Source: Bacteroidales bacterium | GTDB lineage: Bacteria > Bacteroidota > Bacteroidia > Bacteroidales > UBA932 | Direction of reading: 5' to 3' | Assembly: GCA_017550525.1 (NCBI GenBank) | Contig: JAFZOU010000135.1 | Coordinates: 1-34,918 of the forward strand | DNA: 34,918 nt | Part shown: positions 1 to 34,918 of the stretch, in pieces | How the letters are laid out: every line of letters starts with the position of its first letter | Position numbering within the stretch: the stretch's first letter is position 1 | Notes under the pieces: generated by a model | Seen by the model: the letters and a program-made list of their open reading frames with translations, nothing else | Database searches by the model: none | What the model was told of the DNA's origin: nothing | Translations under genes and position numbers: made by a program

Positions 1-1014
1 CTCTTATCCGGCCGAGGGTGGCCAGAGGTTGCCAAAGGCACACCCTCCAATGTCTCATCCGGAAAAATGGCCCAAAATCAGGATGGAACCCAGGAAATGG
101 CCGTTCCGTCCGGGAAATCGGCCAAAAATCAGGACGGAACCTTCGGGGCCTATTCTACCGGTGAGCGTACAAGGTCATTTTTAAAGGTGCAGGACGGGTG
201 CAATAACTTCTGTGCTTACTGCACGGTGCCCTATGCAAGGGGCAGGAGCAGAAACATTCCAATCTGCGAGTGCGTGAAGATGGCACGGGAGATTGTGGCG
301 GCAGGAGTTAAGGAAGTAGTTCTGACGGGAGTGAATACAGGTGATTTTGGCCGTACTACAGGCGAATCATTCCCGGATCTGCTGAAGGCCCTGAATGAAG
401 TTGAAGGCATTGAGAGGTTCAGGATATCATCCATTGAGCCAAACCTCATAACGCCTGAGATTGTGGACTGGATTGCGTCAGGGACAAAGTTCCAGCCTCA
501 CTTCCATATACCGCTCCAGAGCGGCTCAGATACGCTTTTAAGGCGGGTTGGAAGGCGTTATGACACTGAGCTTTTCGCTTCAAGGATTGATTATATCCGC
601 AAGGCTATGGAAAGGCCGGGCGGGCCGAAGGTGTTCTTTGGGATTGACGTAATTGTGGGACTTCCCGGAGAGACGGAAGAGCTGTTCCAGGAAACTTATA
701 CGTTCCTTAAAGAGCGCATCAAACCCGCTTTCATCCACGTTTTCCCTTACTCCAGAAGGCCTGGGACCAAGGCCGCGGAGTGGAAGGACCAGGTGAAGGA
801 AAGCGTGAAGCAGGAGCGTGTGGCGGCACTGGAGGAGCTCTGCGAGAAGCTCCACGCGGAGTTTGTATCGGCCAATAAGGGAGTCCGGGAAAAAGTCCTT
901 TGGGAATCTTCCGTGAAGGGAGGCCTCATGGGCGGCTACACCGGCAATTATATAAGGCTTGAGAAGCCGTTTGACGCGGCTCTTGTCAATACTTTGGAGG
1001 AGGTTGAGATATGA
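1..1014 (+). CDS. mtaB: tRNA (N6-threonylcarbamoyladenosine37-C2) methylthiotransferase MtaB, 5'-truncated by window edge
   Basis: Radical-SAM enzyme that converts t6A37 to ms2t6A37 in ANN-decoding tRNAs. The frame is open from base 1, so the N-terminal methylthiotransferase domain lies outside the window and an internal ATG at 67 is not the true start. The radical-SAM cluster motif CNNFCAYC (CX3CX2C) is at about residues 67-74 of the visible part, preceded by the MtaB-typical GERTRSFLKVQDGC block. RISSIEP and HIPLQSGSD follow, and the C-terminus KGGLMGGYTGNYIRLE is TRAM-like. The linker before the SAM domain (bases 1-150) is unusual, with a degenerate DNA repeat giving two NQDGT segments. 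Its stop overlaps the next start (ATGA at 1011-1014). Family assignment is firm; choosing MtaB rather than MiaB or RimO rests on the SAM-domain block. Confidence 0.9.
   Translation, partial: LLSGRGWPEVAKGTPSNVSSGKMAQNQDGTQEMAVPSGKSAKNQDGTFGAYSTGERTRSFLKVQDGCNNFCAYCTVPYARGRSRNIPICECVKMAREIVAAGVKEVVLTGVNTGDFGRTTGESFPDLLKALNEVEGIERFRISSIEPNLITPEIVDWIASGTKFQPHFHIPLQSGSDTLLRRVGRRYDTELFASRIDYIRKAMERPGGPKVFFGIDVIVGLPGETEELFQETYTFLKERIKPAFIHVFPYSRRPGTKAAEWKDQVKESVKQERVAALEELCEKLHAEFVSANKGVREKVLWESSVKGGLMGGYTGNYIRLEKPFDAALVNTLEEVEI
66..141 (+). repeat. degenerate direct repeat plus short inverted repeat inside the mtaB linker
   Basis: Two copies of a ~25-nt unit (about 65-90 and 115-141), each ending in ATCAGGAyGGAACC, encode NQDGT twice. 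Between them GTTCCGTCC (103-111) is the exact reverse complement of GGACGGAAC (132-140), so the region can fold. The second unit also carries the window-wide word ATCGGCC at 117-123. It keeps the mtaB frame open. Confidence 0.7.
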
Positions 1015-1898
1015 CAAGACTAAGGTTTTTGGGAACGGGAACATCGCAGGGCGTGCCAATCATAGCGTGCCAGTGCCCGGTGTGCAAGAGCCTGGATCCA
1101 AGGGACAAGAGGTTCCGGTCATCGGCCTTTGTGGAGTATGAGGGCCTTAATATCCTCATTGATGCGGGACCGGATTTCCGAAGCCAGATGCTCCAGGCCG
1201 ATATCCGTCACCTCGACGCCATCCTTCTCACCCATAACCACAAGGACCATACGGGAGGCCTGGACGATGTCCGCTCTTTTAATTATATAGACAGAAAGGC
1301 GGCGGAGATATACTGCGAGGAAAGGGTCCTTAAGAGCCTCAAGAACGACTACTCCTATGCCTTTGAGGAGGAAAAATACCCCGGTGCGCCGGAGTGGCAC
1401 GTTCACCTCATCGATGAGAGACCTTTCCGTGTAGATTCCCTGGGGCATTCCGGAGAACTTGTGTGGGTGCATGACAAGGGGTATTATTACAGGCAGGCCG
1501 ATGGCAGCCTCTCAAACACCGGAGAGATAGTGTCGGAGGCCTCACATGATAACCCCAACGTGATTCCCATCCGCGGCCTTCACGGCCAGATGCCGGTACT
1601 GGGGTTCCGCTTCGGGAACATCGCCTACTTGACGGACATGAGCCATATAGAAGACTCTGAACTTGAAAAACTCCGGGGTCTCAAGCATCTCACCCTCAAC
1701 ACGGTGAGCTATCATCCTCACCACTCCCACTTCTCCCTTGAGGAGGCCGTGGCGCTGGCCAAGAGGATTGGTGCAGAGCATACCTGGCTTACACACCTCA
1801 GCCATACCTTCCCTACACACGGGGAGTTTGTGGAAAAGCTTAAACAATATGGAGGAAACATTGAGCCTGCGTATGACGGGCTCACAATTGAAGACTGA
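1011..1898 (+). CDS. MBL-fold metallo-hydrolase, PhnP-like
   Basis: A 295-residue metallo-beta-lactamase-fold hydrolase. The N-terminus FLGTGTSQGVPIIACQCPVC is typical of the PhnP-like subgroup (cyclic phosphate phosphodiesterase relatives), including the paired cysteines. The metal-binding HxHxDH motif reads HNHKDH at residues 75-80, with an acidic LIDAGPDFR block before it and late histidines in YHPHHSHFS and WLTHLSHTFPTH that complete a two-metal site. Start codon overlaps the mtaB stop by 4 nt, and its TGA overlaps the next ATG by 1 nt (TGATG at 1896-1900), so the run is translationally coupled. The physiological substrate is unknown. Family confident, exact reaction inferred. Confidence 0.85.
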   Translation: MTRLRFLGTGTSQGVPIIACQCPVCKSLDPRDKRFRSSAFVEYEGLNILIDAGPDFRSQMLQADIRHLDAILLTHNHKDHTGGLDDVRSFNYIDRKAAEIYCEERVLKSLKNDYSYAFEEEKYPGAPEWHVHLIDERPFRVDSLGHSGELVWVHDKGYYYRQADGSLSNTGEIVSEASHDNPNVIPIRGLHGQMPVLGFRFGNIAYLTDMSHIEDSELEKLRGLKHLTLNTVSYHPHHSHFSLEEAVALAKRIGAEHTWLTHLSHTFPTHGEFVEKLKQYGGNIEPAYDGLTIED

Positions 1899-3322: not shown

Positions 3323-3338
3323 TTAATTAACATTTTAT

Positions 3339-4286
3339 ATGGCACCTGACGTTATTAAAACCATTGACAGCATCAACGTAACGCTGAACGCCGGCGGGAT
3401 GAACACCATTAACATCATCCTGGCCTTCGTGATGTACGGCGTTGCGCTGGGCATCAAACCTGCTATTTTCGTAGAAGTTTTCAAAAAGCCCAAGTCCGTA
3501 CTTCTGGGCATGCTCAGCCAGCTTGTGCTACTGCCAGCCTTCACCTGCGGCCTTGCCATCCTCATGACCGGATGGATTTCTCCCATGATGGCAATGGGCA
3601 TGATCCTGGTAGCAGCCTGCCCCGGCGGAAACATCTCCAACTTCATGAGTTCCCTGGGTAAGGCCAACATTGAACTTTCAGTGAGCCTCACGGCCATCTC
3701 AACGGCCCTGGCAGTGTTCATGACCCCATTCAACTTCTGGTGCTGGGGCAGCATCTATATGCACTTCGCCGGCGTCCATGGTGACATTCCCACCCTTGTG
3801 ATTCCGCTCTGGGATGTGTTCAAGACCATCTTCATCCTCCTTGGAATTCCGCTAATACTGGGTATACTCACAAGCCAGTTCCTCCCCAAGGTTGCAGCCT
3901 TCCTGAAAAAGCCCCTGCAGTGGCTCTCAATTGTGATTTTTGTAGCAATGGTGGTGCTGTCCTTCTCCAGCAACATAGATGCGTTCCTCCTGAGCGTAAA
4001 GTACATTTTCCTGGTGGTTCTCATCCACAACCTCCTGGCCCTTGGCCTTGGATTCAGCGTTGCTACGGTTGGAAAACTCCCCTACCGTGACCGCCGCACA
4101 CTCACCATTGAAACCGGCATCCAGAACTCTGGCCTTGGCCTAGCGCTGATGCTTGGAACAAGCCTTTTTGCAGGCTTCCCCCCTCACGGAGGAATGCTTG
4201 TAATCACTGCCTGGTGGGGCATCTGGCACATCATTTCCGGCCTTACCATAGCAACAATTTTCAACAGAACCAAAAAAGATGCGTGA
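3339..4286 (+). CDS. bile acid:sodium symporter (BASS) family transporter
   Basis: A 315-residue integral membrane protein with about nine to ten hydrophobic segments. Features of the BASS/SBF fold include an early GVALGIKPAIF helix, the VAACPGGNISNFMSSLGKANIELSVSL core (sodium-binding crossover region of this family) and the late ETGIQNSGLGLALML motif. These families co-transport organic anions, often bile acids, pantoate or keto acids, with Na+. The substrate cannot be read from the sequence. The ATG at 3339 lies 16 nt after the oxidoreductase stop and its own stop overlaps the next gene by 8 nt, so it belongs to the same operon. Confidence 0.87.
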   Translation: MAPDVIKTIDSINVTLNAGGMNTINIILAFVMYGVALGIKPAIFVEVFKKPKSVLLGMLSQLVLLPAFTCGLAILMTGWISPMMAMGMILVAACPGGNISNFMSSLGKANIELSVSLTAISTALAVFMTPFNFWCWGSIYMHFAGVHGDIPTLVIPLWDVFKTIFILLGIPLILGILTSQFLPKVAAFLKKPLQWLSIVIFVAMVVLSFSSNIDAFLLSVKYIFLVVLIHNLLALGLGFSVATVGKLPYRDRRTLTIETGIQNSGLGLALMLGTSLFAGFPPHGGMLVITAWWGIWHIISGLTIATIFNRTKKDA

Positions 4287-5310: not shown

Positions 5311-5319
5311 CAACCAATC

Positions 5320-5382
5320 AGGCGGCTTCTGCCGCCAGCCCCTCTCCCGAGGAGAGGGGGGAGGGGTGAGGGTAACGTAAGC
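5320..5382. repeat. dispersed double-hairpin repeat, copy 1
   Basis: A 63-nt element with two GC-rich hairpins: stem GGCGGC/GCCGCC with loop TTCT (5321-5336), then a 9-bp stem CCCCTCTCC/GGAGAGGGG with loop CGA (5339-5359), then a G-rich tail ending GGTAACGTAAGC. A second copy lies at 19987-20042, lacking 7 nt of the G-rich tail. Both sit between convergent genes (acyltransferase/pckA here). Resembles REP/BIME-type palindromic repeats; no transposase is visible. Confidence 0.8.
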
Positions 5383-14248: not shown

Positions 14249-15076
14249 ATGAATCCCAAAATTCAAAAGATAAAGGATATTGTCTCCGTGCTGCAAGACC
14301 GGCTTGGAGGCTTTTCACCGGAAATAGGCATAGTCCTTGGCAGCGGCCTTGGCTCCCTTGCCAATTCCATAGAAAACCCCGTCACGGTACCCTACAAGGA
14401 GCTTCCGAGCTTCCCTGTGTCCACCGCAACTGGGCACAAGGGCAACTACATTGCCGGCACCCTTTCAGGAAAGAAGGTCCTTGCAATGCAGGGACGCATC
14501 CACTACTATGAGGGCTATGGAATGGATATGGTAGTGCTTCCAATCCGTGTAATGCTCATGTTGGGCATCAAATACCTCTTTGTGTCCAATGCCGCAGGAG
14601 GCACCAACCTTGGTTACCACGTAGGTGACCTAATGATAATCAAGGACCATATCAACCTACTTCCAAACCCTCTTATCGGCCCCAATTTCGACGAAATCGG
14701 CCCGCGTTTCCCCGACATGACGCGCCCCTATGACCCTTCCCTCATCAGATTGGCTGAAGGACTGGCCGATGAAATGGGCATCTGCCTCCAGAAGGGCGTC
14801 TATGTTGGCGGCACGGGCCCGTCCTATGAGACTCCCGCAGAGTACAAGTACTTCCGTCACATCGGCGGAGATGCCGTTGGAATGAGCACCATCCCCGAGG
14901 TCATCGTGGCCCGCCATGCCGGTATTCCCGTCTTTGGAATATCCGTCATCACCAACGAGGCTCACGATGATTATGCCGATGACTACGTTAATGACGGCCA
15001 GGACGTCGTGGACGCCGCAAATGCAGCAGCCGCCAAGATGACGCTCCTCATTGGCAAAATGATTGAAAAACTCTAA
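14249..15076 (+). CDS. purine nucleoside phosphorylase, trimeric type, copy 1 (6-oxopurine type)
   Basis: A 275-residue PNP-I enzyme that cleaves inosine and guanosine with phosphate to base and ribose-1-phosphate. Phosphate-site residues: LGSGLGSLA near residue 30 and [12 protein letters not shown]. Base site: [13 protein letters not shown], whose Glu corresponds to human PNP E201, [13 protein letters not shown], and Asn236 in VITNEAHD, equivalent to human N243, which selects 6-oxopurines. It is directly followed (4 nt) by a paralogue with nearly identical DNA blocks, a tandem duplication. With the upstream deaminase it forms a purine-salvage operon. Confidence 0.93.
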
Positions 15077-15080
15077 AACT

Positions 15081-15905
15081 ATGACATACTTGGAAACCAT
15101 ATACGCAGGGACAGATTATGTCCGCGAGAAAATTGGGGATATCCGTCCCACAACGGGCATCATCCTCGGCAGCGGCCTTGGAAAACTGGCCGATGAAATA
15201 GAAAACCCCATAGAGATACCCTACGGCACCATCCCAGGGTTCCCTGTTTCCACTGCTATCGGCCATAAGGGCTGCTTCATAGTGGGCACCCTGTCCGGAA
15301 AGACGGTCATCGCAATGCAGGGCCGCATCCACTACTATGAGGGCTACGGCACCGCCACGGCTACCCTCCCGGTACGCGTAATGATACTCCTTGGCATACG
15401 CAGGCTGTTTGTTTCCAACGCAGCCGGCGGTACCAACCTGGGATACCATGTTGGAGACCTCATGATTATCAGGGACCACATCAACCTGCTGCCCAATCCC
15501 CTTATCGGCCCCAACCTCAGCGAATTCGGCCCGCGTTTCCCCGACATGACGCGTCCCTATGATCCGGGGCTCATAAGGTTGGCGGAGGAGATTGCCGCAG
15601 AGAGGGGCATTCAGCTAAGGAAGGGCGTATACGTTGCCTGCAGCGGCCCTTCCTATGAGACGCCTGCGGAATACCGTTACTTCCGTTCAATAGGGGCCGA
15701 TGCAGTGGGCATGAGCACCACTCCGGAGGTGATTGTGGCCCGCCACAGCAGCATTCCCGTATTTGGAATGTCCGTGATTACTGATGTAGCCCACGCTACA
15801 GACGATGAAGATTACGTGACGGACGGAGAGGCCATTGTGAAAGCCGCAGACGCTGCAGCAGACAAAATGACCACTCTCATCAAAGAAATGTTGATGCAAC
15901 TTTAA
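15081..15905 (+). CDS. purine nucleoside phosphorylase, trimeric type, copy 2 (Asp at the specificity position)
   Basis: A 274-residue paralogue of the preceding gene. I chose ATG 15081 (MTYLETIYAG), 4 nt after the upstream stop; an in-frame ATG at 15063 would overlap copy 1 by 14 nt and adds six poorly matching residues. All phosphate-site and catalytic blocks are kept ([47 protein letters not shown]). The base-specificity Asn is Asp235 (VITDVAHA). In human PNP an N243D change shifts preference toward 6-aminopurines, so this copy may accept adenosine-type nucleosides. That is inference from known mutagenesis; the enzyme family itself is sure. Confidence 0.92.
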   Translation: MTYLETIYAGTDYVREKIGDIRPTTGIILGSGLGKLADEIENPIEIPYGTIPGFPVSTAIGHKGCFIVGTLSGKTVIAMQGRIHYYEGYGTATATLPVRVMILLGIRRLFVSNAAGGTNLGYHVGDLMIIRDHINLLPNPLIGPNLSEFGPRFPDMTRPYDPGLIRLAEEIAAERGIQLRKGVYVACSGPSYETPAEYRYFRSIGADAVGMSTTPEVIVARHSSIPVFGMSVITDVAHATDDEDYVTDGEAIVKAADAAADKMTTLIKEMLMQL

Positions 15906-16494: not shown

Positions 16495-16648
16495 GCCGCC
16501 GGGATCGATGGCTGAAATCAACACGTTCGATTGAACCGGGCGCACTTAGGCCGTGGATGGCGGGCCCTCTTTGAAGGGATACCTGAATCGGCCGGACCCC
16601 AAATCTTATTTATTAAGATTTTCTGACTGGATACGGCGGCTTTTTTTC
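16495..16648 (+). ncRNA. candidate 6S-like RNA closed by a long-range helix and T-tract
   Basis: The 195-nt zapA-rny gap has no open frame. GCCGCCG (16495-16501) is complementary to CGGCGGC (16634-16640), which is followed at once by seven T (16641-16647), giving a long closing helix with an intrinsic-terminator end. Inside are a strong hairpin AAATCTTA/TAAGATTT (about 16601-16620) and a small CCCT/AGGG hairpin near 16565-16577. 6S RNA (ssrS) often lies next to zapA, so 6S is the leading reading. I did not confirm the 6S central bubble, and ~154 nt is on the short side. Confidence 0.5.
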
Positions 16649-16689: not shown

Positions 16690-18210
16690 ATGGACATCAT
16701 ATCTTTAATAATTGGATTTGTAGCCGGAGCGGTAATAGCCCTGGCGGCTTACATAGTGATAAGGCGCTCTATCCTCAAGGGGAAGCGTGACGAAATCATT
16801 GAAAAGGCAGAGATTGAAGCAGAAAAGATTAAGAACGAGAGAATACTCCAGGCCAAGGAGAAGTATCTTTCCCTCAAGAGCGAGCATGAGAAAATGGTCA
16901 ACGAGTCCAACGCCCGTATCCATGAATCTGAGAATCGCGTAAGGCAGAAGGAGAACACCTTAAACCAGAAGATGGGTGAGGCCGATAGAAAAAACCGTGA
17001 ACTGGATGCCCAGAAAGCGGCCCTGAAGGCCAGGGAAGATGAATACGACCGCCTTCGCGACCAGGCAATCCGCCAGATAGAGGAGGTTGCCGGCATGACT
17101 GCCCAGGAAGCAAAAACCCAGCTCATGGAGCAGATGAAGGCAGAGGCCCGCACAGAAGCTCAGGCCTACATCAACGACTGCATAGACGAAGCCCGCCTCA
17201 ACGCCGCCAAGGAAGCAAAGCGCATAGTTATCAACACCATCCAGCGCACCGCTACGGAAACTGCAATTGAGAATGCCGTTACCACCTTCCCCATTGAGAA
17301 CGACGAAATTAAGGGACGTATTATCGGCCGTGAAGGACGTAATATCCGCGCCCTGGAGGCCGCTACGGGCGTGGAGATTGTGGTAGACGACACCCCTGAT
17401 GCAATCCTTCTCAGCGCGTTTGACCCTGTGCGCAGGGAGGTTGCCCGTCTTGCCCTCCACCAGCTTGTTGTAGACGGCCGTATCCACCCTGCCCGTATTG
17501 AAGAGGTGGTCACAAAGGTTTCCAAGCAGCTTGAGGAAGAGATCCTGGAAACAGGCAAGCGCACCTGCATAGACCTTGGGATCCACGGCCTTTCAATGGA
17601 GCTTGTCCGTCTTATCGGCCGAATGAAATACCGTTCATCCTATGGCCAGAACCTCCTTCAGCACTCACGTGAGGTTGCTAACATCTGCGCCATCCTGGCT
17701 TCCGAGCTTGGCCTCAACCCCAAAATTGCAAAGAGGGCCGGCCTGCTGCATGATATAGGAAAGGTTTCAGAGGAAGACCCTGATCTCCCTCACGCCCTCC
17801 TTGGCATGAAGCTGGCAGAGCAGTACAAGGAAAAGCCGGAAATCTGCAATGCTATCGGCGCTCACCATGAGGAAACCGAGATGACATCCCTCTACGCTCC
17901 CCTAGTGCTGGTTGGTGACGCCATCTCAGGCGCCCGTCCCGGTGCACGCCGTGAGGTCATAGAGAGCTACATCAAGAGACTCCGCGGCATGGAGAACCTT
18001 GCCGGCGCTTATCCCGGAGTAACCAAGGCCTACGCCATCCAGGCCGGCCGTGAACTCCGCGTGATTGTAGGCGCAGAACAGGTCTCGGACCATGACGCAG
18101 AGGTCCTCTCCGGTGAAATCGCCAAGAAGATCCAGGACGAAATGACCTATCCCGGCCAGGTGAAGATCACGGTCATCCGTGAAACCAGGTCAGTTGCTTA
18201 CGCAAAGTAA
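16690..18210 (+). CDS. rny: ribonuclease Y
   Basis: A 506-residue membrane-anchored endoribonuclease that initiates mRNA decay. N-terminal transmembrane helix (residues about 4-24, [21 protein letters not shown]), then a long coiled coil to about residue 180, a KH domain ([31 protein letters not shown]), and the metal-binding HD domain with the His-Asp pair at residues 354-355 (LLHDIGKV) and IGAHHEE further on. Length and order are canonical. It follows the structured RNA by 42 nt; the gap contains a 10-bp palindrome CTGTTAACAG (16661-16670) but no good -7 box, so its promoter is unclear. Confidence 0.96.
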
Positions 18211-19968: not shown

Positions 19969-19986
19969 CTTGTCCAATGCTTCCCC

Positions 19987-20042
19987 AGGCGGCTTCTGCC
20001 GCCAGCCCCTCTCCCGAGGAGAGGGGGGAGGGTAACGTAAGC
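19987..20042. repeat. dispersed double-hairpin repeat, copy 2
   Basis: The 56-nt second copy of the element at 5320-5382, identical apart from a 7-nt gap in the G-rich tail. Both hairpins are intact (GGCGGC-TTCT-GCCGCC and CCCCTCTCC-CGA-GGAGAGGGG), as is the tail GGTAACGTAAGC. It lies 18 nt after the nucleotidase stop, between convergent genes, and may double as a terminator or mRNA 3' stabiliser. Confidence 0.8.
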
Positions 20043-20084: not shown

Positions 20085-21385
20085 CTTTGCATAAGGGAGC
20101 CGGTAACGGCGCCCTTCATCAGTTTGCGGGTGCCTTCAAACTGCTTGAGGAGCTTGTTTACATCCGGAAGGCTGGTGCCGGAGCCATCGGCAATCCTCTT
20201 GCGGCGGGAACCGTTGATTGCCTCCGGGTGCTCCCTCTCATAGGGAGTCATGGAAAGGATGATGGCTTCCGTGGACTTGAAGGCGTCGTCAGGGATATCC
20301 ACATCCTTCATAGCCTTGTCCATGCCGGGAATCATACCCGCAAGGTCCTTGATATTACCCATCTTCTTCACCTGCTGGATCTGCTGATAGAAATCCCACA
20401 GGGTGAACTGATCCTTGGCAAGTTTCTTCTTGAGGGCACGGGCCTCCTTTTCATCGTACTGCTCCTGGGCTTTCTCAACAAGGGAAACCACGTCTCCCAT
20501 GCCAAGGATACGGTCTGCTATGCGTTCAGGGTGGAATACATCCAGGGCCTCGAGTTTTTCTCCGGAAGAGACAAACTTGATGGGTTTTCCAACCACGGCC
20601 TTGATGGAGAGGGCCGCACCACCGCGGGTGTCACCGTCCATCTTGGTGAGGACAACGCCGTCAAAGTCCAGGCGGTCGTTGAAGGCCCTGGCGGTTTCTA
20701 CGGCGTCCTGACCTGTCATGGCGTCTACCACAAACAGGGTTTCCGTAGGGTTCAGGGCTTTATGGAGGGCCGATATCTCGTTCATCAGTTCCTCGTCCAC
20801 CGCAAGACGGCCGGCGGTATCCACAATCACCACAGGGAAGCCTTCAGCTTTAGCCTTCTTAACAGCATCGTGGGCAATTTTGATAGGATCCTTCTCCCCT
20901 TCTATCGTAAAAACGGGAACCTCTATGCTGTCTCCCAGCACTTTGAGCTGCTCTATGGCGGCGGGACGGAAGGTATCGCAGGCGGCAAGAAGGACCTTCA
21001 TCCCTTTCTTGGACTTCAGGTGGAGGGCCAGTTTTGCACTGAATGTGGTTTTACCGGAACCGTTGAGACCAGCCACCAGCACAATGCCGGGGTTTCCCTT
21101 AACATTGATTTCCTGGGCCGACGACCCCATGAAATCCGCCAGTTCATCCCTCATGATCTTTACCATCATCTGCTGGGGCTTCACGGCGGTGAGAACGCCT
21201 GTGCCGATGGCCTTGTCCTTTACGCGGTTACAGAAATCCTTTGCAACCTTATAGCTTACATCGGCATCCAGAAGGGCCTTGCGGATATCCTTGACGGTTT
21301 CCGCAATATTGATTTCAGTTATTTTTCCTTCTCCCTTGAGGATCTTGAACGACCTCTCCAGTCTCTCTTGCAGGTTCTCGAACAT
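20066..21385 (-). CDS. ffh: signal recognition particle protein Ffh (SRP54)
   Basis: A 439-residue SRP GTPase that binds signal sequences and 4.5S RNA to deliver nascent membrane proteins to SecYEG. I chose ATG 21385 (MFENLQERLERSF), the standard Ffh start; an in-frame ATG at 21415 would lie upstream of the likely -7 box at 21404-21411. N domain, then the G domain with GLNGSGKTTFSAKLA, DTFRPAAIEQL, DTAGR and TKMDGDTRGG, then a methionine-rich M domain (GMIPGMDKAMKDVD, SMTPYEREHPEAI, SRRKRIADGSGTS, LMQRMKG). Full length. It is monocistronic with a terminator folded into its last codons. Confidence 0.97.
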   Translation of the reverse strand: MFENLQERLERSFKILKGEGKITEINIAETVKDIRKALLDADVSYKVAKDFCNRVKDKAIGTGVLTAVKPQQMMVKIMRDELADFMGSSAQEINVKGNPGIVLVAGLNGSGKTTFSAKLALHLKSKKGMKVLLAACDTFRPAAIEQLKVLGDSIEVPVFTIEGEKDPIKIAHDAVKKAKAEGFPVVIVDTAGRLAVDEELMNEISALHKALNPTETLFVVDAMTGQDAVETARAFNDRLDFDGVVLTKMDGDTRGGAALSIKAVVGKPIKFVSSGEKLEALDVFHPERIADRILGMGDVVSLVEKAQEQYDEKEARALKKKLAKDQFTLWDFYQQIQQVKKMGNIKDLAGMIPGMDKAMKDVDIPDDAFKSTEAIILSMTPYEREHPEAINGSRRKRIADGSGTSLPDVNKLLKQFEGTRKLMKGAVTGSLMQRMKGFR

Positions 21386-21403
21386 ACGTACAATTTTAGT
21401 GTG

Positions 21404-21411
21404 CAAATATA
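21404..21411 (-). promoter_or_regulatory. ffh -7 box TATATTTG
   Basis: Minus-strand TATATTTG, matching TAnnTTTG, 19 nt upstream of the chosen ffh ATG. It supports start 21385 over 21415. No clear TTTG -33 box at 19-21 nt. Confidence 0.6.
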
Positions 21412-21453
21412 GCAATTTCTGCGTTCATAATAAAAAAGAAACGTTTCCTGTGT

Positions 21454-21469
21454 TGTTTCACGTGAATCA
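21454..21469. promoter_or_regulatory. parS-like ParB-binding site
   Basis: TGTTTCACGTGAATCA matches the conserved chromosomal parS consensus TGTTTCACGTGAAACA at 15 of 16 positions, including the full TTCACGTGAA core. It lies in the non-coding gap between divergent ffh and the lipoprotein gene. A second palindrome GAAACGTTTC is 7 nt upstream (21438-21447). Confidence 0.65.
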
Positions 21470-21527
21470 CAAAAAACATTTCAAAAAGTTTTTACGTTTG
21501 AGGGGGGTCAGTTCCGGGAAAGGGCCA

Positions 21528-21535
21528 TACCTTTG
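21528..21535 (+). promoter_or_regulatory. -7 box TACCTTTG of the DUF4493/DUF6359-like lipoprotein gene
   Basis: Plus-strand TACCTTTG fits TAnnTTTG and is 17 nt before the ATG at 21552. The nearest TTTG (21497-21500) is 27 nt upstream, too far for a standard -33 box. Confidence 0.5.
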
Positions 21536-21551
21536 GCAAAACGCTTGCAAT

Positions 21552-22643
21552 ATGGAAAAACTGTTAAAATGGATGGCCATAATCCCGCTGGTGGCGGGAC
21601 TGGCCGCATGCGATGATTTTGGGAAATACCCATCGGCCGATACCCACGGGGAGCTCCAGTGGGAGATTGACCGGGAGTCCGTTGCAAAAGCCGGGGCCCA
21701 GCTCCCGGATATAAATGACTTCCTGCTCACAATTATTGACAACAAAGGCGTAACCCTCTATGACGGTCCTTATGGAGACTCCCCGGCCAGTCTCACCGTC
21801 CCGGCGGGGAGCTACACAATAAGCGTAGTCTCAGGGCAGTTTACCTCCCCCGCCTTCGCACATCCCGTCTATGGAGATGAGGAGGTTGTGGTAATAAAGG
21901 CCGGGGAAAGCGCTACGGTCTATCTAAACTGTACCCTCATCAACTGCGGCATAAGGCTAAGAATCGCCCCTGATTTCCTCACCAGCTTCCCGGACGGAGT
22001 AATGTATGTGAAACAGGGATCGGCCAAACTAATGTACTCCTATATGGAAGACAGGATTGCATATTTCAAACCGGGAGAGATTGCCGTGGTACTATATAAC
22101 GAAGGTAAGGAGGAGACACTTTTCACGCGCATCCTGGAGGCCCGGCAAATCCTTACCGTAAGCATATCGGCCCCGGGAAAGGCCGATGGCGGAGCATCCT
22201 CAATAAGGGTATCGCTGGACACAAGCAAGACATGGCTCACGGAGAACTGGGTCATAGGCGGGGACAATTCAGGAAACGGTCAGGGCGGAGGATCCGTTCC
22301 GGATGCATGCTCCGTATCCGAAGCCCGTGAAAGGATTGGGCAGAAAGATGTTTGGGTATATGGATATATAGTAGGAGGAGACTTAACCACATCTGCAACC
22401 GGAGAGGTCAAGACATCTGGCATCACAAAGGCAACACACCTTGCTATGGCCGACCGGTCTACAATCAGGGACAAGGCCGCATGCATAGCCGTGGAACTGC
22501 CGGCCGGGAAAGTGCGTGACGCCCTGAACCTGGTGGCTCACCCGGACCTGATAGGAACGAGGGTATACGTAAAAGGAGAGATTGTGGAAAAATACTTTGG
22601 GACCGTAGGACTCAAAGGGACAAGCGACTATGTGATGAAATAG
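21552..22643 (+). CDS. putative surface lipoprotein, DUF4493-like N-terminus and DUF6359/OB-fold-like C-terminus
   Basis: A 363-residue predicted lipoprotein. Start ATG 21552 gives MEKLLKWMAIIPLVAGLAAC with the lipobox cysteine at residue 20; an upstream open extension (from 21279) overlaps ffh and the promoter and is rejected. Residues about 30-225 resemble DUF4493 (GELQWEIDRE, DINDFLLTIIDNKG, TVPAGSYTISVVSG). A glycine-rich linker (SGNGQGGGS) leads to a C-terminal domain like DUF6359 (SVSEARERIGQKDVWVYGYIVGG, RVYVKGEIVEKYFG), an OB-like fold common in Bacteroidales lipoproteins. Function unknown. It carries an unusual five copies of the ATCGGCC word, and its stop abuts the cls stop on the opposite strand with no gap. 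Confidence 0.8.
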   Translation: MEKLLKWMAIIPLVAGLAACDDFGKYPSADTHGELQWEIDRESVAKAGAQLPDINDFLLTIIDNKGVTLYDGPYGDSPASLTVPAGSYTISVVSGQFTSPAFAHPVYGDEEVVVIKAGESATVYLNCTLINCGIRLRIAPDFLTSFPDGVMYVKQGSAKLMYSYMEDRIAYFKPGEIAVVLYNEGKEETLFTRILEARQILTVSISAPGKADGGASSIRVSLDTSKTWLTENWVIGGDNSGNGQGGGSVPDACSVSEARERIGQKDVWVYGYIVGGDLTTSATGEVKTSGITKATHLAMADRSTIRDKAACIAVELPAGKVRDALNLVAHPDLIGTRVYVKGEIVEKYFGTVGLKGTSDYVMK

Positions 22644-24147: not shown

Positions 24148-25734
24148 GTGAAGAACTACCTAAAGAAACTAGAAGACCAGATTCACCAGAATCCCACAAA
24201 GCCCGCCCTCAGTGACTATGAGGGCGCAAGCTACACGTATTCAGAGGTTGCAGAACTCATAGAGCGCTACCATATCTTCTTCCAGACAGCGGGTATAAAG
24301 CCCGGAGACAAGATAGCCATCTGCGCCAGGAACTCGGCCCGATGGGGCATCCTGTTCTTTGCGGTAAACACCTATGAGGCCGTTGTAGTCCCCATTCTGG
24401 CCGATTTCACCGCCAACGGTGCAAGCAAGCTCATCGGCCATTCCGACAGCGTACTACTGATTGCAGACCCTGATATCTGGAACCAGATGTCTCCGGAGGA
24501 CATGCCGCTTCTGAGGGGGGTCATCAATTCCCGTGAGGAAGGCCTCCTGTGGCACAAGGATCATGATATTGCCCAGGCATGGGAAGACAGGGACACCCTC
24601 TTTGACCAATGTTACCCTGACGGCTTCAACCCTCAGGATGTCATATACCCCGGCGATGATAAAGCCCTGGCCCTTATCAATTACACTTCAGGAACTTCAG
24701 GTGATCCCAAGGGAGTAATGCTCAGTTACGGAGCAATGTCGGACATAGTGGAGCAGTGTCAGCAAAAACTCTCCAACACCCCAGACAAACTAGTCTCCAT
24801 GCTCCCCCTTGCCCATATGTACGGCCTGGCAATGGAGTTCATATATCCCTGCTGCACCGGTTTTACAATCTGGTTCCTTGGAAAACTCCCCTCCCCTTCA
24901 CTCCTTATGAAGGCGTGTTCGGAGGTCCAGCCCAGCATCATGATTACCGTACCTCTGGTAATGGAAAAGCTTTATCAGACACAGATACAGCCACAACTTG
25001 CCGGACTTGCAGCACGTGTCCCCTACCTAAGGATTCCTTTCTACAAGGGCCTTGGGAAAAAGCTTCTACAGTCACTCGGAGGCCGGATTGAGACCATCAT
25101 CATCGGAGGCGCACCCCTTACCTGGGAAGTGGAGAGCGGGTTCCGTAAAATCGGCCTTCCTTATGCCGTTGGTTATGGTATGACGGAGGCCTGTCCCCTG
25201 CTTTCGCTGGAAACACCGGATCATTTTGAGCCCGGTTCCTGCGGCAAACCCACTCACCGCCTCAGGATAGAGTCCTCCGACCCTGAACGCATCCCGGGAG
25301 AAATCCAGGCACAGGGCCCCAACCTTACAATGGGCTATTATAAGAATCCGGAGGCCGATGCCAAGGCATGGACCCCTGACGGCTGGTTCCGAACCGGAGA
25401 CCTCGGTATCATGGACGAGGACGGGAACGTGTTCATAAAGGGCCGCATCAAGGCCATCATCCTCTCCTCTTCCGGCCAGAACATCTACCCGGAAGAAGTG
25501 GAACAGGTTCTCTCCAAGCACCCCATGGTGCAGGAGTCCCTGGTAATTGAACGTGCCGGAAAAGTTGTAGCCCTGGTATACCCCAAACCCGGAGTTGTTC
25601 CCTCAGAGGACCACATCAGGGACTACACCAACCGCTCCCTTCCCATCTTCAGCCAGATTTTCCGCGTAGAGCTTGTAGACCTCCCTTTCCAGCGCACTGC
25701 CAAAGGCACAATCAAGCGCCACCTGTATCAGTAG
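24148..25734 (+). CDS. AMP-dependent synthetase/ligase, long-chain acyl-CoA synthetase-like, paralogue 1
   Basis: A 528-residue adenylate-forming enzyme of the FadD type that activates a carboxylic acid, probably a fatty acid, via acyl-AMP to acyl-CoA. Start is GTG at 24148; no in-frame ATG lies close upstream. Motifs: NYTSGTSGDPKGVML (AMP P-loop, about residue 177), GYGMTEACPLL (adenine/substrate block), WFRTGDLG, KGRIKAIILSSSGQNIYPEE, and the C-terminal lysine in RTAKGTIKRHLY that catalyses adenylation. It is closely related to the ligase at 27947-29593, and the two face each other across htpG with matching 3' flanks. Acyl substrate unknown. Confidence 0.9.
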   Translation: MKNYLKKLEDQIHQNPTKPALSDYEGASYTYSEVAELIERYHIFFQTAGIKPGDKIAICARNSARWGILFFAVNTYEAVVVPILADFTANGASKLIGHSDSVLLIADPDIWNQMSPEDMPLLRGVINSREEGLLWHKDHDIAQAWEDRDTLFDQCYPDGFNPQDVIYPGDDKALALINYTSGTSGDPKGVMLSYGAMSDIVEQCQQKLSNTPDKLVSMLPLAHMYGLAMEFIYPCCTGFTIWFLGKLPSPSLLMKACSEVQPSIMITVPLVMEKLYQTQIQPQLAGLAARVPYLRIPFYKGLGKKLLQSLGGRIETIIIGGAPLTWEVESGFRKIGLPYAVGYGMTEACPLLSLETPDHFEPGSCGKPTHRLRIESSDPERIPGEIQAQGPNLTMGYYKNPEADAKAWTPDGWFRTGDLGIMDEDGNVFIKGRIKAIILSSSGQNIYPEEVEQVLSKHPMVQESLVIERAGKVVALVYPKPGVVPSEDHIRDYTNRSLPIFSQIFRVELVDLPFQRTAKGTIKRHLYQ

Positions 25735-25783: not shown

Positions 25784-25873
25784 CACGTGCATATCTGCCA
25801 ATATGGCAGAAAGTGCAGGTGTGGCTCAAGTTTTGACTTACAATCGGCCGGAATACAATAAAAACTACATATT
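25784..25873 (+). promoter_or_regulatory. htpG upstream region with a hairpin and a candidate promoter
   Basis: Contains hairpin TCTGCCA-ATA-TGGCAGA (25794-25810), not followed by T, and further on TTGACT (25832-25837) and TACAAT near 25854, 15-16 nt apart. No TAnnTTTG box is seen, so htpG may use a different sigma factor from its neighbours. The word ATCGGCC also occurs here (about 25843), one of two clearly non-coding copies. Confidence 0.3.
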
Positions 25874-27859
25874 ATGGCAAACAAAGGACAGGTTGGAGTA
25901 ACCACGGAAAACATATTCCCGGTTATCAAACAGTTTCTCTACAGTGACCATGAGATCTTCCTCAGGGAGCTTGTGGCAAACGCCGTTGACGCAACCCAGA
26001 AGATGAAGGCCCTGGCCGCTTCCGGAGACTGCAAGGAGGAACTTGGAGACCTTAAGGTTCACATTGAACTGGATGAAAAGGCCAATACCCTTAAGATTGC
26101 CGATAACGGTATCGGCATGACGGAGGAAGAGGTGGACAAATACATCAACCAGATAGCCTTCTCAAGCGCGGGAGAATTCCTGGAGAAGTACAAGGACCAG
26201 ATCCAGAATATCATCGGCCATTTTGGTCTTGGCTTCTACAGCGCCTTCATGGTTTCAAAGAAGGTGACCATTGAAACGCTGTCATGGAAGGAAGGCGCAA
26301 AGGCCGTCAAATGGACCTGCGACGGTTCTCCTGAATACACCATGGAGGATTGCGACAAGGCCGATAGAGGTACAGTAATCACGCTCTACCTTGACGATGA
26401 TTCCGCCGAATACGCAGATAAATCCCGCATCGAGACCCTTCTCCAGAAATACTGCAAGTTCATGCCCGTTCCCATTGTCTTTGGAAAGGAGCAGGAATGG
26501 AAGGATGGAAAATACGTGGATACGGACAAGGACAAGGTCATCAACTCCGTGGAGCCCCTCTGGACCAAGGCCCCGTCAGAGCTCAAGGATGAGGATTACC
26601 TTGGATTCTACCGCACCCTCTTCCCCATGAACGAGGAACCCCTTTTCTGGATCCACCTCAATGTAGACTATCCCTTCAACCTTACAGGTATCCTATACTT
26701 CCCTAAACTCAAGGACCGCGTGGCAGTGGAGCGCAACAAGATTTCCCTCTACTGCAACCAGATGTTCGTCACGGACCACGTAGACAACATCGTCCCTGAC
26801 TTCATGACTCTCCTTCACGGTGTCATCGACTCACCTGACATCCCGCTTAACGTAAGCCGCAGCTACCTCCAGAGTGATGCTGCCGTAAAGAAGATATCCA
26901 CCTATATCACAAAGAAGGTTGCAGACCGCCTGGAGGGCATCTTCAAGGATGAGAGGGAGCAGCTGGAGGCCAAGTGGGACAACCTCAAACTCTTCATTGA
27001 GTACGGCATGCTCTCCGACGAAAAGTTCTTCGAGAGGGCCCAGAAGTTTGCTCTCCTAAAGAACGTAGACGGCAAGTACTTCAGCTTTGATGAGTACAAG
27101 GAGGCCGTGAAGGACGCCCAGACAGACAAAGACAAGAAGCTTGTGTACCTCTATGCCACAAAGGCCGATGACCAGTACGCCTTCATCCAGGCCGCAAAGG
27201 ACAAGGGCTACGACGTCCTCCTCATGGACTGCGAGCTGGACGCCCACTATGTGAACCTCCTGGAACAGAAGCTTACGGACACCCGTTTTGCCCGCGTGGA
27301 CTCAGACGCCATAGAGAATCTCATCCCCAAGGAAGACAAGGTGAAGCTGGAGATGAAGGAAGACGAGCGCTATGACCTTGAGAATATGTTCAAGGCCGTC
27401 CTCCCTGAAGGAAACGACTACTTTGTACAGGGTGACAACCTTGGGGCAGACGCCGCTCCCGTCCTCATCACCCAGAACGAATTCATGCGCCGCTACCGTG
27501 AGATGAGCGCCCTTGGCGGCGGAATGAACTTCTACGGAGAGATGCCTCAGAGCTACAATATCACCGTAAATATGGAGAACCCTCTGGTGGCGCAGATCTG
27601 GGCTTCCAAGCAGGCCGATGTAAAGCCTCAGGGAGAACTTCCTGCCGAGGCCCCTTCTGACGCCCCCGAGGAAGAGAAGACCAAGGCCAGGGAAGCCCGT
27701 GAGGCCGTCCGAAAGGCCCACAGGGCCGATGTAGAGGCCTTTGCCCGGGAGAATGACCTCCTTCATCAGATAGCAGACCTCGCCCTCCTCTCCAACGGAA
27801 TGCTGAAAGGAAAAGCCCTGAGCGATTTCATTGCAAGAAGCTACGCCATCATGAAATAG
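25874..27859 (+). CDS. htpG: molecular chaperone HtpG (Hsp90)
   Basis: A 661-residue ATP-dependent chaperone. N-terminal GHKL ATPase: FLRELVANAVDATQKM (catalytic Glu and Mg-binding Asn), IADNGIGMTEEE, and the lid/glycine motif IGHFGLGFYSAFMV. The middle domain carries NVSRSYLQSD with the gamma-phosphate-contacting Arg, and the C-terminal dimerisation domain follows. A charged segment (PAEAPSDAPEEEKTKAREAREA) near residue 600 is a linker before the final helices. Full length. It is an isolated gene embedded between two convergent acyl-CoA ligase paralogues, inside an inverted repeat that could allow the segment to flip. Confidence 0.97.
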   Translation: MANKGQVGVTTENIFPVIKQFLYSDHEIFLRELVANAVDATQKMKALAASGDCKEELGDLKVHIELDEKANTLKIADNGIGMTEEEVDKYINQIAFSSAGEFLEKYKDQIQNIIGHFGLGFYSAFMVSKKVTIETLSWKEGAKAVKWTCDGSPEYTMEDCDKADRGTVITLYLDDDSAEYADKSRIETLLQKYCKFMPVPIVFGKEQEWKDGKYVDTDKDKVINSVEPLWTKAPSELKDEDYLGFYRTLFPMNEEPLFWIHLNVDYPFNLTGILYFPKLKDRVAVERNKISLYCNQMFVTDHVDNIVPDFMTLLHGVIDSPDIPLNVSRSYLQSDAAVKKISTYITKKVADRLEGIFKDEREQLEAKWDNLKLFIEYGMLSDEKFFERAQKFALLKNVDGKYFSFDEYKEAVKDAQTDKDKKLVYLYATKADDQYAFIQAAKDKGYDVLLMDCELDAHYVNLLEQKLTDTRFARVDSDAIENLIPKEDKVKLEMKEDERYDLENMFKAVLPEGNDYFVQGDNLGADAAPVLITQNEFMRRYREMSALGGGMNFYGEMPQSYNITVNMENPLVAQIWASKQADVKPQGELPAEAPSDAPEEEKTKAREAREAVRKAHRADVEAFARENDLLHQIADLALLSNGMLKGKALSDFIARSYAIMK

Positions 27860-32427: not shown

Positions 32428-32468
32428 CACAATTTCTAGTGCAACTTAACTACCTGAGACACAGATCG

Positions 32469-32514
32469 TTACAGAGTTATTTGGGATTACCGGTAATCCC
32501 AAATAACTCTGTAA
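32469..32514. repeat. perfect 46-bp palindrome downstream of aguA
   Basis: The left half 32469-32491 and right half 32492-32514 are exact reverse complements with no spacer, centred on ACCGGT. The arms include GAGTTATTTGGGATTACC. No T run follows on either strand, so it does not look like an ordinary terminator. It lies in the 192-nt convergent aguA/ompA gap. Confidence 0.9.
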
Positions 32515-32568
32515 AACATTGATATTCAGAGAAATAAGTTCCACCGCATCGGCATTACCACAGGAGAC

Positions 32569-32595
32569 AAAAAAAGACATCCCTTTGCAGGGATG
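32569..32595 (-). terminator. rho-independent terminator of the OmpA-family gene
   Basis: Stem CATCCCT/AGGGATG (32578-32584 with 32589-32595), loop of 4, then T run on the minus strand (plus A at 32569-32575). A further small hairpin GTAAGAT-AG-ATCTTAC (32609-32624) touches the stop codon. Confidence 0.82.
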
Positions 32596-32619
32596 CCTTT
32601 AGAAAAGGTAAGATAGATC

Positions 32620-33828
32620 TTACTGGAGCTCGATGGTAACTACGCGGTTCTTAGCAGCGCCGTCGAAGAGCTGTACGGTTGCACCGTGAGCTGCGCACTC
32701 GATGTTCTCTTCCTTGGCACCAGCCTTGGTGAGGAGATCAACGACGTACTTAACACGCTGCTCTGAAAGCTGCTGGTTGCGTTTTGCAGTACCAGTCTGC
32801 TTGTCTGCATAACCGTCTACCTTAAGCTTGGTGTCACCGTCTACGACAGTGTTGGTGAAGTACTCGAAGTGAGCTTTTTCACGCTCTGAAAGCTTTGCGC
32901 TACCGCAGTCGAAGTAGAGGGTGATAGGGCTGCCGGGCTTCACGTCAACAGCAGTGAACTTACCGTTCTCATAGAGATAGGTCTGACCATCAACAAGCTC
33001 ACGGAGAGGAGCAACCTCTTCCTCAAGAGCTGCGATCTTGTCCTTAAGCTCTGCATTCTCTTTCTCCAGGGCTGCCACCTTGTCTGCAAGGGCATTGTAC
33101 TGCTCTGTGGTGAAAGGAACAGGGATAACAACGGGAGTGATTGAGCTGTGACGGTTGAAACCGGTCTTGCCAAGCTTGATAGCTACACCGATAGTTGCAG
33201 AAAGAGGGAACTCGAAGTGTCCGATCTTCTTCTGAACTTCAACACCATACCATGAAGCCTTAGCTACCATTGCGCGGAAATCCAGGAGGAGGTCTACGCG
33301 GTTGCTGAGGTAGAAGCGGTTGAGGATACCACCACCGTAGATCCATTCGGCTGCAGCTACGGGAGTGATTGCAAGACCGCCGGAGAGGTAAGGAGCAACA
33401 TTCCAAACGCGGGTCTCTTTGTAACCCCAGAATGTGTCAGTGAGGCTCCAGAGGAGGTCACCAGTGATGAAGTGCTGTGCAGGATTTAGCGGAACACCGT
33501 CTTTACCAAGAACGTTGTTTGCAAGGCCAAGCCAGTTGATACGGCCTCCGATGAAGGGAGTCCACCATTTGCCGAGGGATACGTCTACTGCGAGACCGCC
33601 AATGCCCTGTGCAAAGGGAATACCGGAAGTGTTCTGGAGGTTAAGACCTGCATTCCAACCAGCGCCAAGGCCAATCCAAGTGTTGTCAAAAGCCTTGTTG
33701 GTTTCATAAGCACCACGAACGACTTTACCGTTCTCATCACGGTTTGCATTCTCCTGAGCGAAAGCGTTCACGGAGAAGAGGAGGCTTGCTGCTGCAAGAG
33801 CTCCAAGAATCATTTTGATACCTTTCAT
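32620..33828 (-). CDS. OmpA-family outer membrane protein
   Basis: A 402-residue outer-membrane protein. Signal peptide of 24 residues (MKGIKMILGALAAASLLFSV then NAFA), a beta-barrel-like N-terminal domain of about 210 residues with aromatic-rich alternating strands, a coiled-coil segment (ALADKVAALEKENAELKDKI, about residues 250-280), and a C-terminal OmpA peptidoglycan-binding domain (LYFDCGSAKLS, KVDGYADKQTG with the conserved Asp, NQQLSEQRVKYV with the conserved Arg). It anchors the envelope to peptidoglycan. A near-consensus promoter and terminator suggest strong monocistronic expression. The gene contains no ATCGGCC word. Confidence 0.94.
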   Translation of the reverse strand: MKGIKMILGALAAASLLFSVNAFAQENANRDENGKVVRGAYETNKAFDNTWIGLGAGWNAGLNLQNTSGIPFAQGIGGLAVDVSLGKWWTPFIGGRINWLGLANNVLGKDGVPLNPAQHFITGDLLWSLTDTFWGYKETRVWNVAPYLSGGLAITPVAAAEWIYGGGILNRFYLSNRVDLLLDFRAMVAKASWYGVEVQKKIGHFEFPLSATIGVAIKLGKTGFNRHSSITPVVIPVPFTTEQYNALADKVAALEKENAELKDKIAALEEEVAPLRELVDGQTYLYENGKFTAVDVKPGSPITLYFDCGSAKLSEREKAHFEYFTNTVVDGDTKLKVDGYADKQTGTAKRNQQLSEQRVKYVVDLLTKAGAKEENIECAAHGATVQLFDGAAKNRVVTIELQ

Positions 33829-33835
33829 AATTTTG

Positions 33836-33849
33836 TATTAACGTTAATA
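33836..33849. promoter_or_regulatory. 14-bp palindrome in the ompA leader
   Basis: TATTAACGTTAATA is a perfect palindrome 8 nt before the OmpA start codon, in the transcribed leader. It could be a repressor operator or an RNA hairpin controlling translation. Confidence 0.5.
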
Positions 33850-33891
33850 AAATTTGCCGTTTTACAATACCCATTTAGGGATTCTCATTTG

Positions 33892-33922
33892 CAAATTTAA
33901 GCAATTTTCTCCATAGAACAAA
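33892..33922 (-). promoter_or_regulatory. OmpA-family gene promoter (TTTG-N19-TAAATTTG)
   Basis: Minus strand -33 TTTG (33919-33922) and -7 TAAATTTG (33892-33899) with 19-nt spacing, an exact match to the Bacteroides consensus. Predicted leader about 55-60 nt. Confidence 0.82.
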
Positions 33923-33959
33923 TTTTTCCGGCTTTTTTTTAAATTTTTTGCGAATTACG

Positions 33960-33967
33960 TATCTTTG
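33960..33967 (+). promoter_or_regulatory. uvrB -7 box TATCTTTG
   Basis: Plus-strand TATCTTTG, 15 nt before the uvrB ATG. The -33 area is a T-rich run without a clear TTTG. Confidence 0.5.
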
Positions 33968-33982
33968 TAAAAAGTCCAGAGA

Positions 33983-34918
33983 ATGCAATTCAAGCTCAAT
34001 TCACCATACTCTCCTTCCGGGGACCAGCCGGAAGCAATAGACCAGTTATGCAGTGCCCTGAACCAAGGTGTGCAGGACGTTACGCTGCTTGGCGTAACAG
34101 GATCCGGCAAGACTTTCACTATGGCAAACGTAATCCAGAGGCTCCAGAGACCGGCTTTGATTTTAAGCCACAACAAAACCCTGGCGGCCCAGCTATACGG
34201 TGAATTCAAGGCGTTTTTCCCTGACAATGCCGTGGAATATTTTGTCTCCTACTATGATTATTATCAGCCGGAGGCCTATATTCCGGTCACGGACACGTAC
34301 ATTGAGAAAGACCTGAGTATCAACGACAAAATTGACGAGCTCCGTGTCAGTGCAGCATCGGCCCTGATGAGCGGAAGAAGGGATGTGATTGTAATCAGCT
34401 CCGTCTCATGCCTGTACGGAATAGGCAACCCCGACGATTTCCATGACCAGACCGTCACCGTCCATAAAGGAGAACGCATGTCCATGACAAGACTCCTCTA
34501 TAAGATAGTGGACGCCCTCTACTACCGCACGGAAACGGATTTCAAGCGCGGCAGCTTCCGCGTACGCGGAGATACGGTAGATATCTTCCTCGGAGGGGCC
34601 GATTACGCCGCCCGCATAGAGTTCTTCGGAGACGAAGTGGACCGGATAGCCCTCATAGACCCCGTCACGGGCGCCATCTTCGAGGAAATGGAAAAGATAG
34701 ACCTCTACCCCGCCAAGAACTTCGTAACCTCCAAGGAAAAGGGCGCCAAGGCCGTGAGCCAGATTCAGGACGACCTTGTGAAACAGGTGGAATACTTTGA
34801 GTCAATAGGCAAATACCTTGAGGCCAAACGCTTGAAACAGAGGGTGGAATACGACATAGAGATGATAAAGGAAATGGGCTACTGCCCCGGCGTTGAGAAC
34901 TATTCCCGCTACTTTGAC
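33983..34918 (+). CDS. uvrB: excinuclease ABC subunit UvrB, 3'-truncated by window edge
   Basis: The first 312 codons of the nucleotide-excision-repair damage-verification helicase, which receives DNA from UvrA and recruits UvrC. Start MQFKLNSPYSPSGDQPEAID is typical. Walker A GVTGSGKT at residues 37-44, SHNKTLAAQLYGEFK, the beta-hairpin YYDYYQPEAYIP (about 92-103) that clamps the DNA strand, and SSVSCLYGIGNP are all visible. The frame is open to the last base, and the remaining helicase motifs and UvrC-binding tail lie outside the window. Confidence 0.97.
   Translation, partial: MQFKLNSPYSPSGDQPEAIDQLCSALNQGVQDVTLLGVTGSGKTFTMANVIQRLQRPALILSHNKTLAAQLYGEFKAFFPDNAVEYFVSYYDYYQPEAYIPVTDTYIEKDLSINDKIDELRVSAASALMSGRRDVIVISSVSCLYGIGNPDDFHDQTVTVHKGERMSMTRLLYKIVDALYYRTETDFKRGSFRVRGDTVDIFLGGADYAARIEFFGDEVDRIALIDPVTGAIFEEMEKIDLYPAKNFVTSKEKGAKAVSQIQDDLVKQVEYFESIGKYLEAKRLKQRVEYDIEMIKEMGYCPGVENYSRYFD

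Follow-up and report, generated by a model that had tools for sequence, protein, structure and literature searches.

The closest described systems to the subject of this study, the 7-mer GGCCGAT and its reverse complement ATCGGCC in a Bacteroidales bacterium, are the DNA uptake sequences (DUS) of the Neisseriaceae and the uptake signal sequences (USS) of the Pasteurellaceae, the HIP1 motif (GCGATCGC) and the alternate highly iterated palindromes (HIPs) of the cyanobacteria, and the Chi sites (GCTGGTGG and the 5-7 bp analogues of AddAB and RexAB). PMC3630211 describes Neisseriaceae uptake sequences with 943 to nearly 6,000 copies per genome, freedom of reading frame and dialects that differ at one base, and gives 9-12 bp as the length of the known uptake sequences. 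It also describes inverted DUS pairs and copies with one deviating base that outnumber the exact ones, in raw counts uncorrected for chance (PMC3630211). Riemerella columbina, a member of the Bacteroidota, is reported to take up its own DNA in preference to other DNA, with no motif established (PMC7965970). HIP1 and the alternate HIPs occur about 500-2,500 times per million bases, are palindromic and linked to methylases, and have single-base variants that are biased to the end positions (PMC4390886). For Chi, polarity is a standard criterion, and the site of Escherichia coli is found once per 5 kb (PMC8022716). In the open-access literature that we searched (subscription papers were outside its scope), we found no description of an uptake sequence, a Chi site or a HIP in the Bacteroidales.

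The motif studied here was noted on contig JAFZOU010000135.1 of assembly GCA_017550525.1, a stretch of 34,918 nucleotides that was analysed as a whole and is called the window. The genome from which the window comes is termed G000, and other G-numbers denote sampled relatives. We report that the motif occurs in far higher numbers than codon usage predicts, that it exists in dialects and that it is very probably maintained for a function.

Motif copies in the window and in the source genome

The window has 33 copies of GGCCGAT and 30 of ATCGGCC, dispersed on both strands over the positions 117..34603 (the first copy starts at 117, the last at 34597), which corresponds to 1.80 per kb. The 63 copies counted in the original prediction were thus recovered exactly, and its roughly 12-fold excess over about 5 expected copies was recomputed as 11.6-fold over the 5.4 copies of an order-1 Markov model. 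GGCCGAT was the top-ranked 7-mer of the window by frequency. In the 2,380,099 bp of the genome, 1,796 forward and 1,800 reverse copies were counted (3,596 in total, about 1.5 per kb or 1,511 per Mb), and the reversed control word was counted 119 and 108 times (227 in total). Since the orientation of the contigs is arbitrary, the equal forward and reverse numbers are uninformative on strand.

Inside the genes called by our script were 56 of the 63 window copies, 27 in the frame xxG-GCC-GAT, 17 in xxA-TCG-GCC, 10 in ATC-GGC-C and 2 in GGC-CGA-T. An example is the close pair of minus-strand copies at 14675 and 14696 (14675..14702) in the gene 14249-15076, which reads as purine-nucleoside-phosphorylase-like. 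Of the seven copies outside the called genes, five sit in an open reading frame (ORF) at 21279-22643 that the script had overlooked. The two copies proposed to be non-coding were both confirmed as intergenic. The first (16587..16593, minus strand) lies in the gap upstream of the gene 16690-18210, rny-like by reading, and the second (25843..25849, minus strand) in the gap between the genes 24148-25734 and 25874-27859, which are acyl-CoA-synthetase-like and HtpG-like, respectively, by reading without a family search.

Codon usage does not account for the excess

Codon usage was analysed as a cause by shuffling synonymous codons genome-wide, with a sample of 264 kb of G000 (a total that includes some unreadable contigs). 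The sample contained 335 coding copies, whereas 52.5 were obtained under shuffling, so that the excess was still 6.4-fold under a codon-preserving null, which the original prediction had named as a possible refutation. By coding-strand frame, the observed and expected numbers were 10 and 0.4 for GGC-CGA-T, 2 and 0.6 for xGG-CCG-AT, 159 and 26.1 for xxG-GCC-GAT, 63 and 21.7 for ATC-GGC-C, 5 and 1.1 for xAT-CGG-CC, and 96 and 2.6 for xxA-TCG-GCC. The claim that copies occur in all codon frames therefore holds for this sample, where the two rarest frames have 2 and 5 copies, but not for the called genes of the window, where these two frames have none. When the base at the codon junction was preserved as well, 598 copies were observed in a larger sample against 91.9 expected. 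Codon usage as the cause was ruled out by the synonymous shuffling.

GGCCGAT had the highest score of the 7-mers against the codon null (z 38.7), and ranks 2-4 were taken by words that overlap the motif or its T variant. An equal enrichment of unrelated 7-mers, also named beforehand as a possible refutation, was not seen: the highest-ranking unrelated word listed, TCACGGA, had 107 copies against 41.0. For some relatives, of which smaller samples were used, the lead of the motif was slimmer, for example in G656, where it had 48 copies against 15.7 and CTCCGGA had 33 against 10.8. As a separate observation in the samples of G000, G737, G785, G656 and G772, words such as CTCGAG, GTCGAC, CGATCG and GATCGC were strongly avoided against the codon expectation in a genome-specific manner, which is possibly restriction avoidance.

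Two window copies overlap head to head at 21632..21641 and form the palindrome ATCGGCCGAT, which has no strand. The coding sample of G000 has 10 overlaps of this kind, where 0.35 are expected under the codon null; by our estimate, this is about the number that an independent enrichment of both orientations would yield.

For non-coding DNA, an initial figure of 31 copies against 3.55 was discarded as inflated, since the simple gene caller had missed genes. Our conclusion rests on an intermediate mask, consisting of the gene calls and ORFs of 100 amino acids (aa), with seven motif-bearing genomes pooled. With this mask, GGCCGAT was found 35 times against 5.9 expected and TGCCGAT 19 times against 6.2, and the numbers were 5 against 5.6 for AGCCGAT and 5 against 5.0 for CGCCGAT. 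One of the seven genomes, G772, had no non-coding GGCCGAT against 0.45 expected. The strictest definition (no ORF of at least 60 aa) leaves little sequence and little power, and its weak result is a caveat: GGCCGAT was observed 3 times against 0.88 in G000, once against 0.96 in G741 and 3 times against 0.16 in G737, and TGCCGAT 5 times against 0.93, 5 times against 1.08 and not at all against 0.20, respectively. Because the excess goes beyond codons in the genes and is also present in non-coding DNA, we conclude that the signal resides in the DNA, with K (G or T) as the first base.

Motif shape and dialects

The words that differ from the motif at one base were then compared with the codon null. 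In G000, TGCCGAT was 3.8-fold enriched and the remaining one-off words were found at 0.54-1.27-fold. Of the extended words, GGCCGATA had 217 copies against 20.9, GGCCGATG 253 against 40.9, GGCCGATT 96 against 17.8 and GGCCGATC 32 against 12.3. The consensus is KGCCGAT, mainly GGCCGAT in G000, followed by a base that is seldom C.

Two comparison sets were used for the one-off words, first G679 with G697 and second 14 loci of low-density relatives together with stretches of G008 and G558. G679 (1,681 copies) and G697 (1,436) served for comparison despite belonging to the 24 genomes that reach 1,000 copies; they are GC-rich and just 2.1- and 1.6-fold above the codon null, so that raw counts give a rough indication. 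GGTCGAT was found at 0.56-fold in G000 and 0.36-fold in G741, whereas the two sets gave 1.18 and 1.28. Similarly, GGCCGAG was at 0.65 and 0.60 against 1.11 and 1.27, and GGCCAAT at 0.63 and 0.57 against 0.87 in both sets. Since the one-off words ranged from 0.64 to 1.90 across both comparison sets, the depletion of words such as these three is tied to the motif. GCCCGAT was also low in one comparison set (0.64), and changes at position 6 and AGCCGAT were not depleted. These results suggest that single changes have often been kept where they make the motif and often lost where they break it.

Across 260 genomes of the genus, TGCCGAT had between 69 and 2,678 copies. The numbers of GGCCGAT and TGCCGAT were 3,091 and 615 in G776, 3,596 and 1,389 in G000, 1,912 and 1,228 in G702, 1,319 and 1,371 in G471, and 1,702 and 2,678 in G680. 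Against the codon null, the two words were enriched 6.9- and 0.6-fold in G776, 6.8- and 3.4-fold in G000, 3.8- and 4.9-fold in G785, and 3.2- and 4.6-fold in G680, with 20 kb each analysed for G776 and G680. With A or C at base 1, 0.0-2.0-fold was found in all 17 genomes. The relatives therefore have base-1 dialects, with G, with G and T, or with T at least as frequent as G.

Maintenance of the sites between species

To follow individual sites, G000 was aligned with G741, the closest relative among those sampled, in 23 blocks that span 85.8 kb at 86.6% identity. Of 147 motif sites, 108 were retained and 14 were one base off; for all 7-mers, the proportions were 43% and 35%. By retention, the motif ranked 13th of the 510 words with at least 25 sites, and two of the words above it overlap the motif. 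Expected retention was calculated from a logistic null model that took into account codon-specific base retention, the identity of the gene and the frame, and the z-scores are approximate in that sites were treated as independent. In coding DNA, 102 of 141 sites were retained against 50.4 expected (z 9.6). For control words of the same composition, 1,966 of 4,636 sites were retained against 2,034 expected. When both directions were considered, 31 counterparts were one base off; 11 of these were the tolerated variant TGCCGAT and 8 were GGCCGAC. The retention of TGCCGAT/ATCGGCA itself was not clear (21 of 43 against 17.1).

At 68-73% identity, retention was above expectation in G776 (12 of 28 sites against 4.3), G737 (10 of 27 against 4.3) and G772 (11 of 35 against 4.5), and likewise in G786 (5 of 9 against 0.8) and G781 (9 of 34 against 5.2), which makes five of the twelve distant comparisons. 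Retention was near expectation or the sites were few in G656 (6 of 29 against 4.4), G785 (8 of 46 against 5.4), G680 (5 of 20 against 3.6), G471 (1 of 18 against 0.8), G679 (1 of 10 against 1.1), G697 (0 of 4) and G787 (0 of 2). Sites can thus persist for long, yet they turn over. Since retention in G741 is twice the codon- and gene-matched expectation and five of the twelve distant comparisons lie above it, an imprint of a past process is disfavoured. We conclude with high confidence that the motif is functionally maintained.

Lineage restriction and distribution along the chromosome

The motif was counted in samples of the family (398 genomes) and the order (393 genomes). Of the 161 genomes of the own genus in the family sample, 24, the source genome included, carry at least 1,000 copies (tallied by hand from the table) and up to 3,797, and most of the sampled congeners have 200-650. 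None of the genomes of other genera in the family sample reached 1,000 copies, the maximum being 984. Outside the genus, the densest genomes of the order and family samples had about 410 copies per Mb (genome sizes were rounded for this calculation), whereas G000 has 1,511 per Mb.

The nearest named relatives by PEPCK were metagenome-assembled genomes of Bacteroidales, several of ruminant origin, and Candidatus Cryptobacteroides was more distant. The PEPCK tree was rejected as a species tree, because the PEPCK of several congeners groups with records labelled Firmicutes. These sequences (L103-L108 and L111) are not of the resident Bacteroidales type and look like gene replacements.

Along the chromosome, no marked skew of orientation was found in the 27 listed stretches, in agreement with the lack of strand bias claimed earlier. 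The gaps between copies were near random, with a coefficient of variation of 1.07 in both genomes analysed, in stretches that were 9 kb or longer and carried 0.8 or more copies per kb. Even spacing, which had been proposed as a check, was not found in this gap analysis of two genomes, nor was a helical phase of 10.5 bp. When all stretches of 9 kb or more were taken together, 2-kb bins without a copy were in excess (33 of 192 against 12.3 and 30 of 267 against 14.1). Two prophage-like stretches were among the poorest. The first, in which a Mu-type portal and a Mu F-like protein were recognised, had 2 copies in 14.9 kb, and the second, which has terminase, portal and capsid, had 5 in 20 kb; the overall density is 1.4-1.5 per kb. 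Also motif-poor, with 0.40 per kb each, were a stretch with GH92, GH125, GH130 and a TonB-dependent receptor and a histidine kinase stretch.

Other features of the window

No tRNA was detected in the window with ARAGORN and no match to Rfam was obtained. At 14249-15905 there is a tandem pair of similar genes, purine-nucleoside-phosphorylase-like by reading, that cross-hit each other. A GC-rich inverted repeat of 47 identical bp lies at 19986-20032 and 5319-5365, in both cases in a gap. It is a dispersed repeat, since a search of 24 relatives gave short matches in a dozen of them, some at 98-100%, and it is perhaps a terminator.

Discussion

The reading that we rank first, tentatively and at somewhat less than even chance, is that KGCCGAT is a functional, orientation-free signal for the recognition of self DNA, most like an uptake sequence. 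The motif would mark the resident chromosome as 'self'. A protein with sequence specificity, belonging to a route of DNA uptake or recombination, would recognise the double-stranded word, mutations that create it would be favoured and those that break it lost, and this would lead to about 1.5 copies per kb in the long-resident genes of one Bacteroidales lineage. The species differences at base 1 may mirror changes in the reader protein. With DUS and USS, the motif shares thousands of copies, the lack of an orientation preference, the presence in coding and non-coding DNA, the scarcity in prophage-like DNA, the one-base dialects between related species and the occurrence of two dialects in one genome, and 3,596 copies lie within the reported range. 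Of the origins offered by the original prediction, an uptake-like signature thus fits in density, orientation, prophage scarcity and dialects, though not in the pilus ATPase described below; methylation found no support in four enzyme families, and the past imprint is disfavoured.

Several observations weigh against an uptake sequence. The motif has 7-8 bp, whereas the known uptake sequences have 9-12 bp, several of its one-off words are depleted, whereas those of DUS outnumber the exact copies in raw counts, and the phylum is a different one. Close pairs were in no clear excess, with 12 neighbours less than 20 bp apart against 16.4 in one genome and 31 against 23.9 in the other, which differs from the inverted DUS pairs of the Neisseriaceae. 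With the strictest mask, GGCCGAT is barely enriched in the non-coding DNA of G000 and G741, below its enrichment in genes. No T2SSE ATPase of the PilB-PilT type was found over the cut-off in any of 30 genomes, with sub-threshold matches in 29 (pilins were not searched); as a control, the same profile search gave matches in 14 of 14 control genomes, 13 over the cut-off. A receptor would therefore need to be of a non-pilus kind. ComEC, the inner-membrane channel of competence, which had been suggested as a check, was present in 30 of 30 genomes, and since low-density congeners have it just as high-density ones do, it does not explain the lineage restriction. No reader protein was identified.

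It is possible, but rather doubtful, that we are dealing with a new class of chromosome-wide self-recognition in the Bacteroidota. This would be a 7-bp word with dialects, selected at thousands of sites, that discriminates self from foreign DNA by a reader other than a type IV pilin or a member of the tested methyltransferase families.

We regard it as unlikely that the motif acts like Chi, where a helicase-nuclease (AddAB or similar) would halt degradation and start recombination at the motif and core genes would be selected to carry it. Such a system requires neither pili nor a methyltransferase, the motif is likewise a short over-represented word, and its scarcity in prophage-like stretches parallels the core-genome enrichment of Chi (PMC8022716). 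However, marked strand polarity is lacking in the 27 stretches, the motif is about seven times denser than the Chi of E. coli, and most sampled congeners lack its abundance. In the weak-motif genomes G679 and G697, no other 7-mer matches the excess seen in G000; since CCCTTCC in G679 (43 against 12.2) rivals the motif in G656, a replacement word may be present there.

A HIP1-like origin is, in our view, equally unlikely. In this case, a solitary or restriction-linked methyltransferase would recognise (K)GCCGAT, and the sites would accumulate through selection or through methyl-directed repair. The motif resembles the HIPs in its density of about 1-2 per kb, its dialects or alternates, its one-off variation at an end position, where the sole strongly enriched one-off word lies (position 1), and its sporadic absence among relatives. 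In addition, GCCGAT with its penultimate A resembles the sites of type IIG and BREX enzymes. In contrast to the HIPs, GGCCGAT is not palindromic, and none of the four methyltransferase families tested tracks the motif density in the 29-30 incomplete genomes (PF02384 and PF02086 were not searched). PF00145 was found in 14 of 29 genomes (8 of 16 with high density, 6 of 13 with low density) and PF01555 in 12 of 29 (5 of 16 and 7 of 13), PF07669 in 25 of 30 (20 over the cut-off) and PF20473 in 14 of 30 (10 over the cut-off). G656 (97% complete, 2,049 copies) and G732 (89%, 2,376 copies) matched none of the four, and a methyltransferase common to all high-density genomes did not emerge from these families. 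Contig 69 of G000 contains, at about 84443-85739, matches to MmeI_Mtase (below the cut-off) and Eco57I, which lie in two different open frames, 213 and 514 aa long.

A binding site for a nucleoid-organising or chromosome-maintenance protein that is needed at high density along the whole chromosome appears quite improbable. The orientation-free, dispersed motif in coding and non-coding DNA is what it predicts, but the spacing is not even and the 10.5-bp phase is lacking; a candidate protein was neither sought nor found. Least probable of all is a passive imprint of mutation or codon bias: the Ile-Gly frame is only 2.9-fold above the codon null and several distant pairs retain sites near the codon expectation, but the Ser-Ala frame is 37-fold above it, the non-coding excess shows the same preference for K and the retention in G741 goes beyond the codon-matched expectation.

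The upkeep of one short word at so many positions implies an important, so far unnamed reader. Owing to the G/T dialects, a search for this protein across the genus can be put directly to the test. If KGCCGAT is indeed a signal for uptake or self-recognition, it would open a way to study how genes are exchanged naturally in a little-studied gut lineage and to gain genetic access to it.

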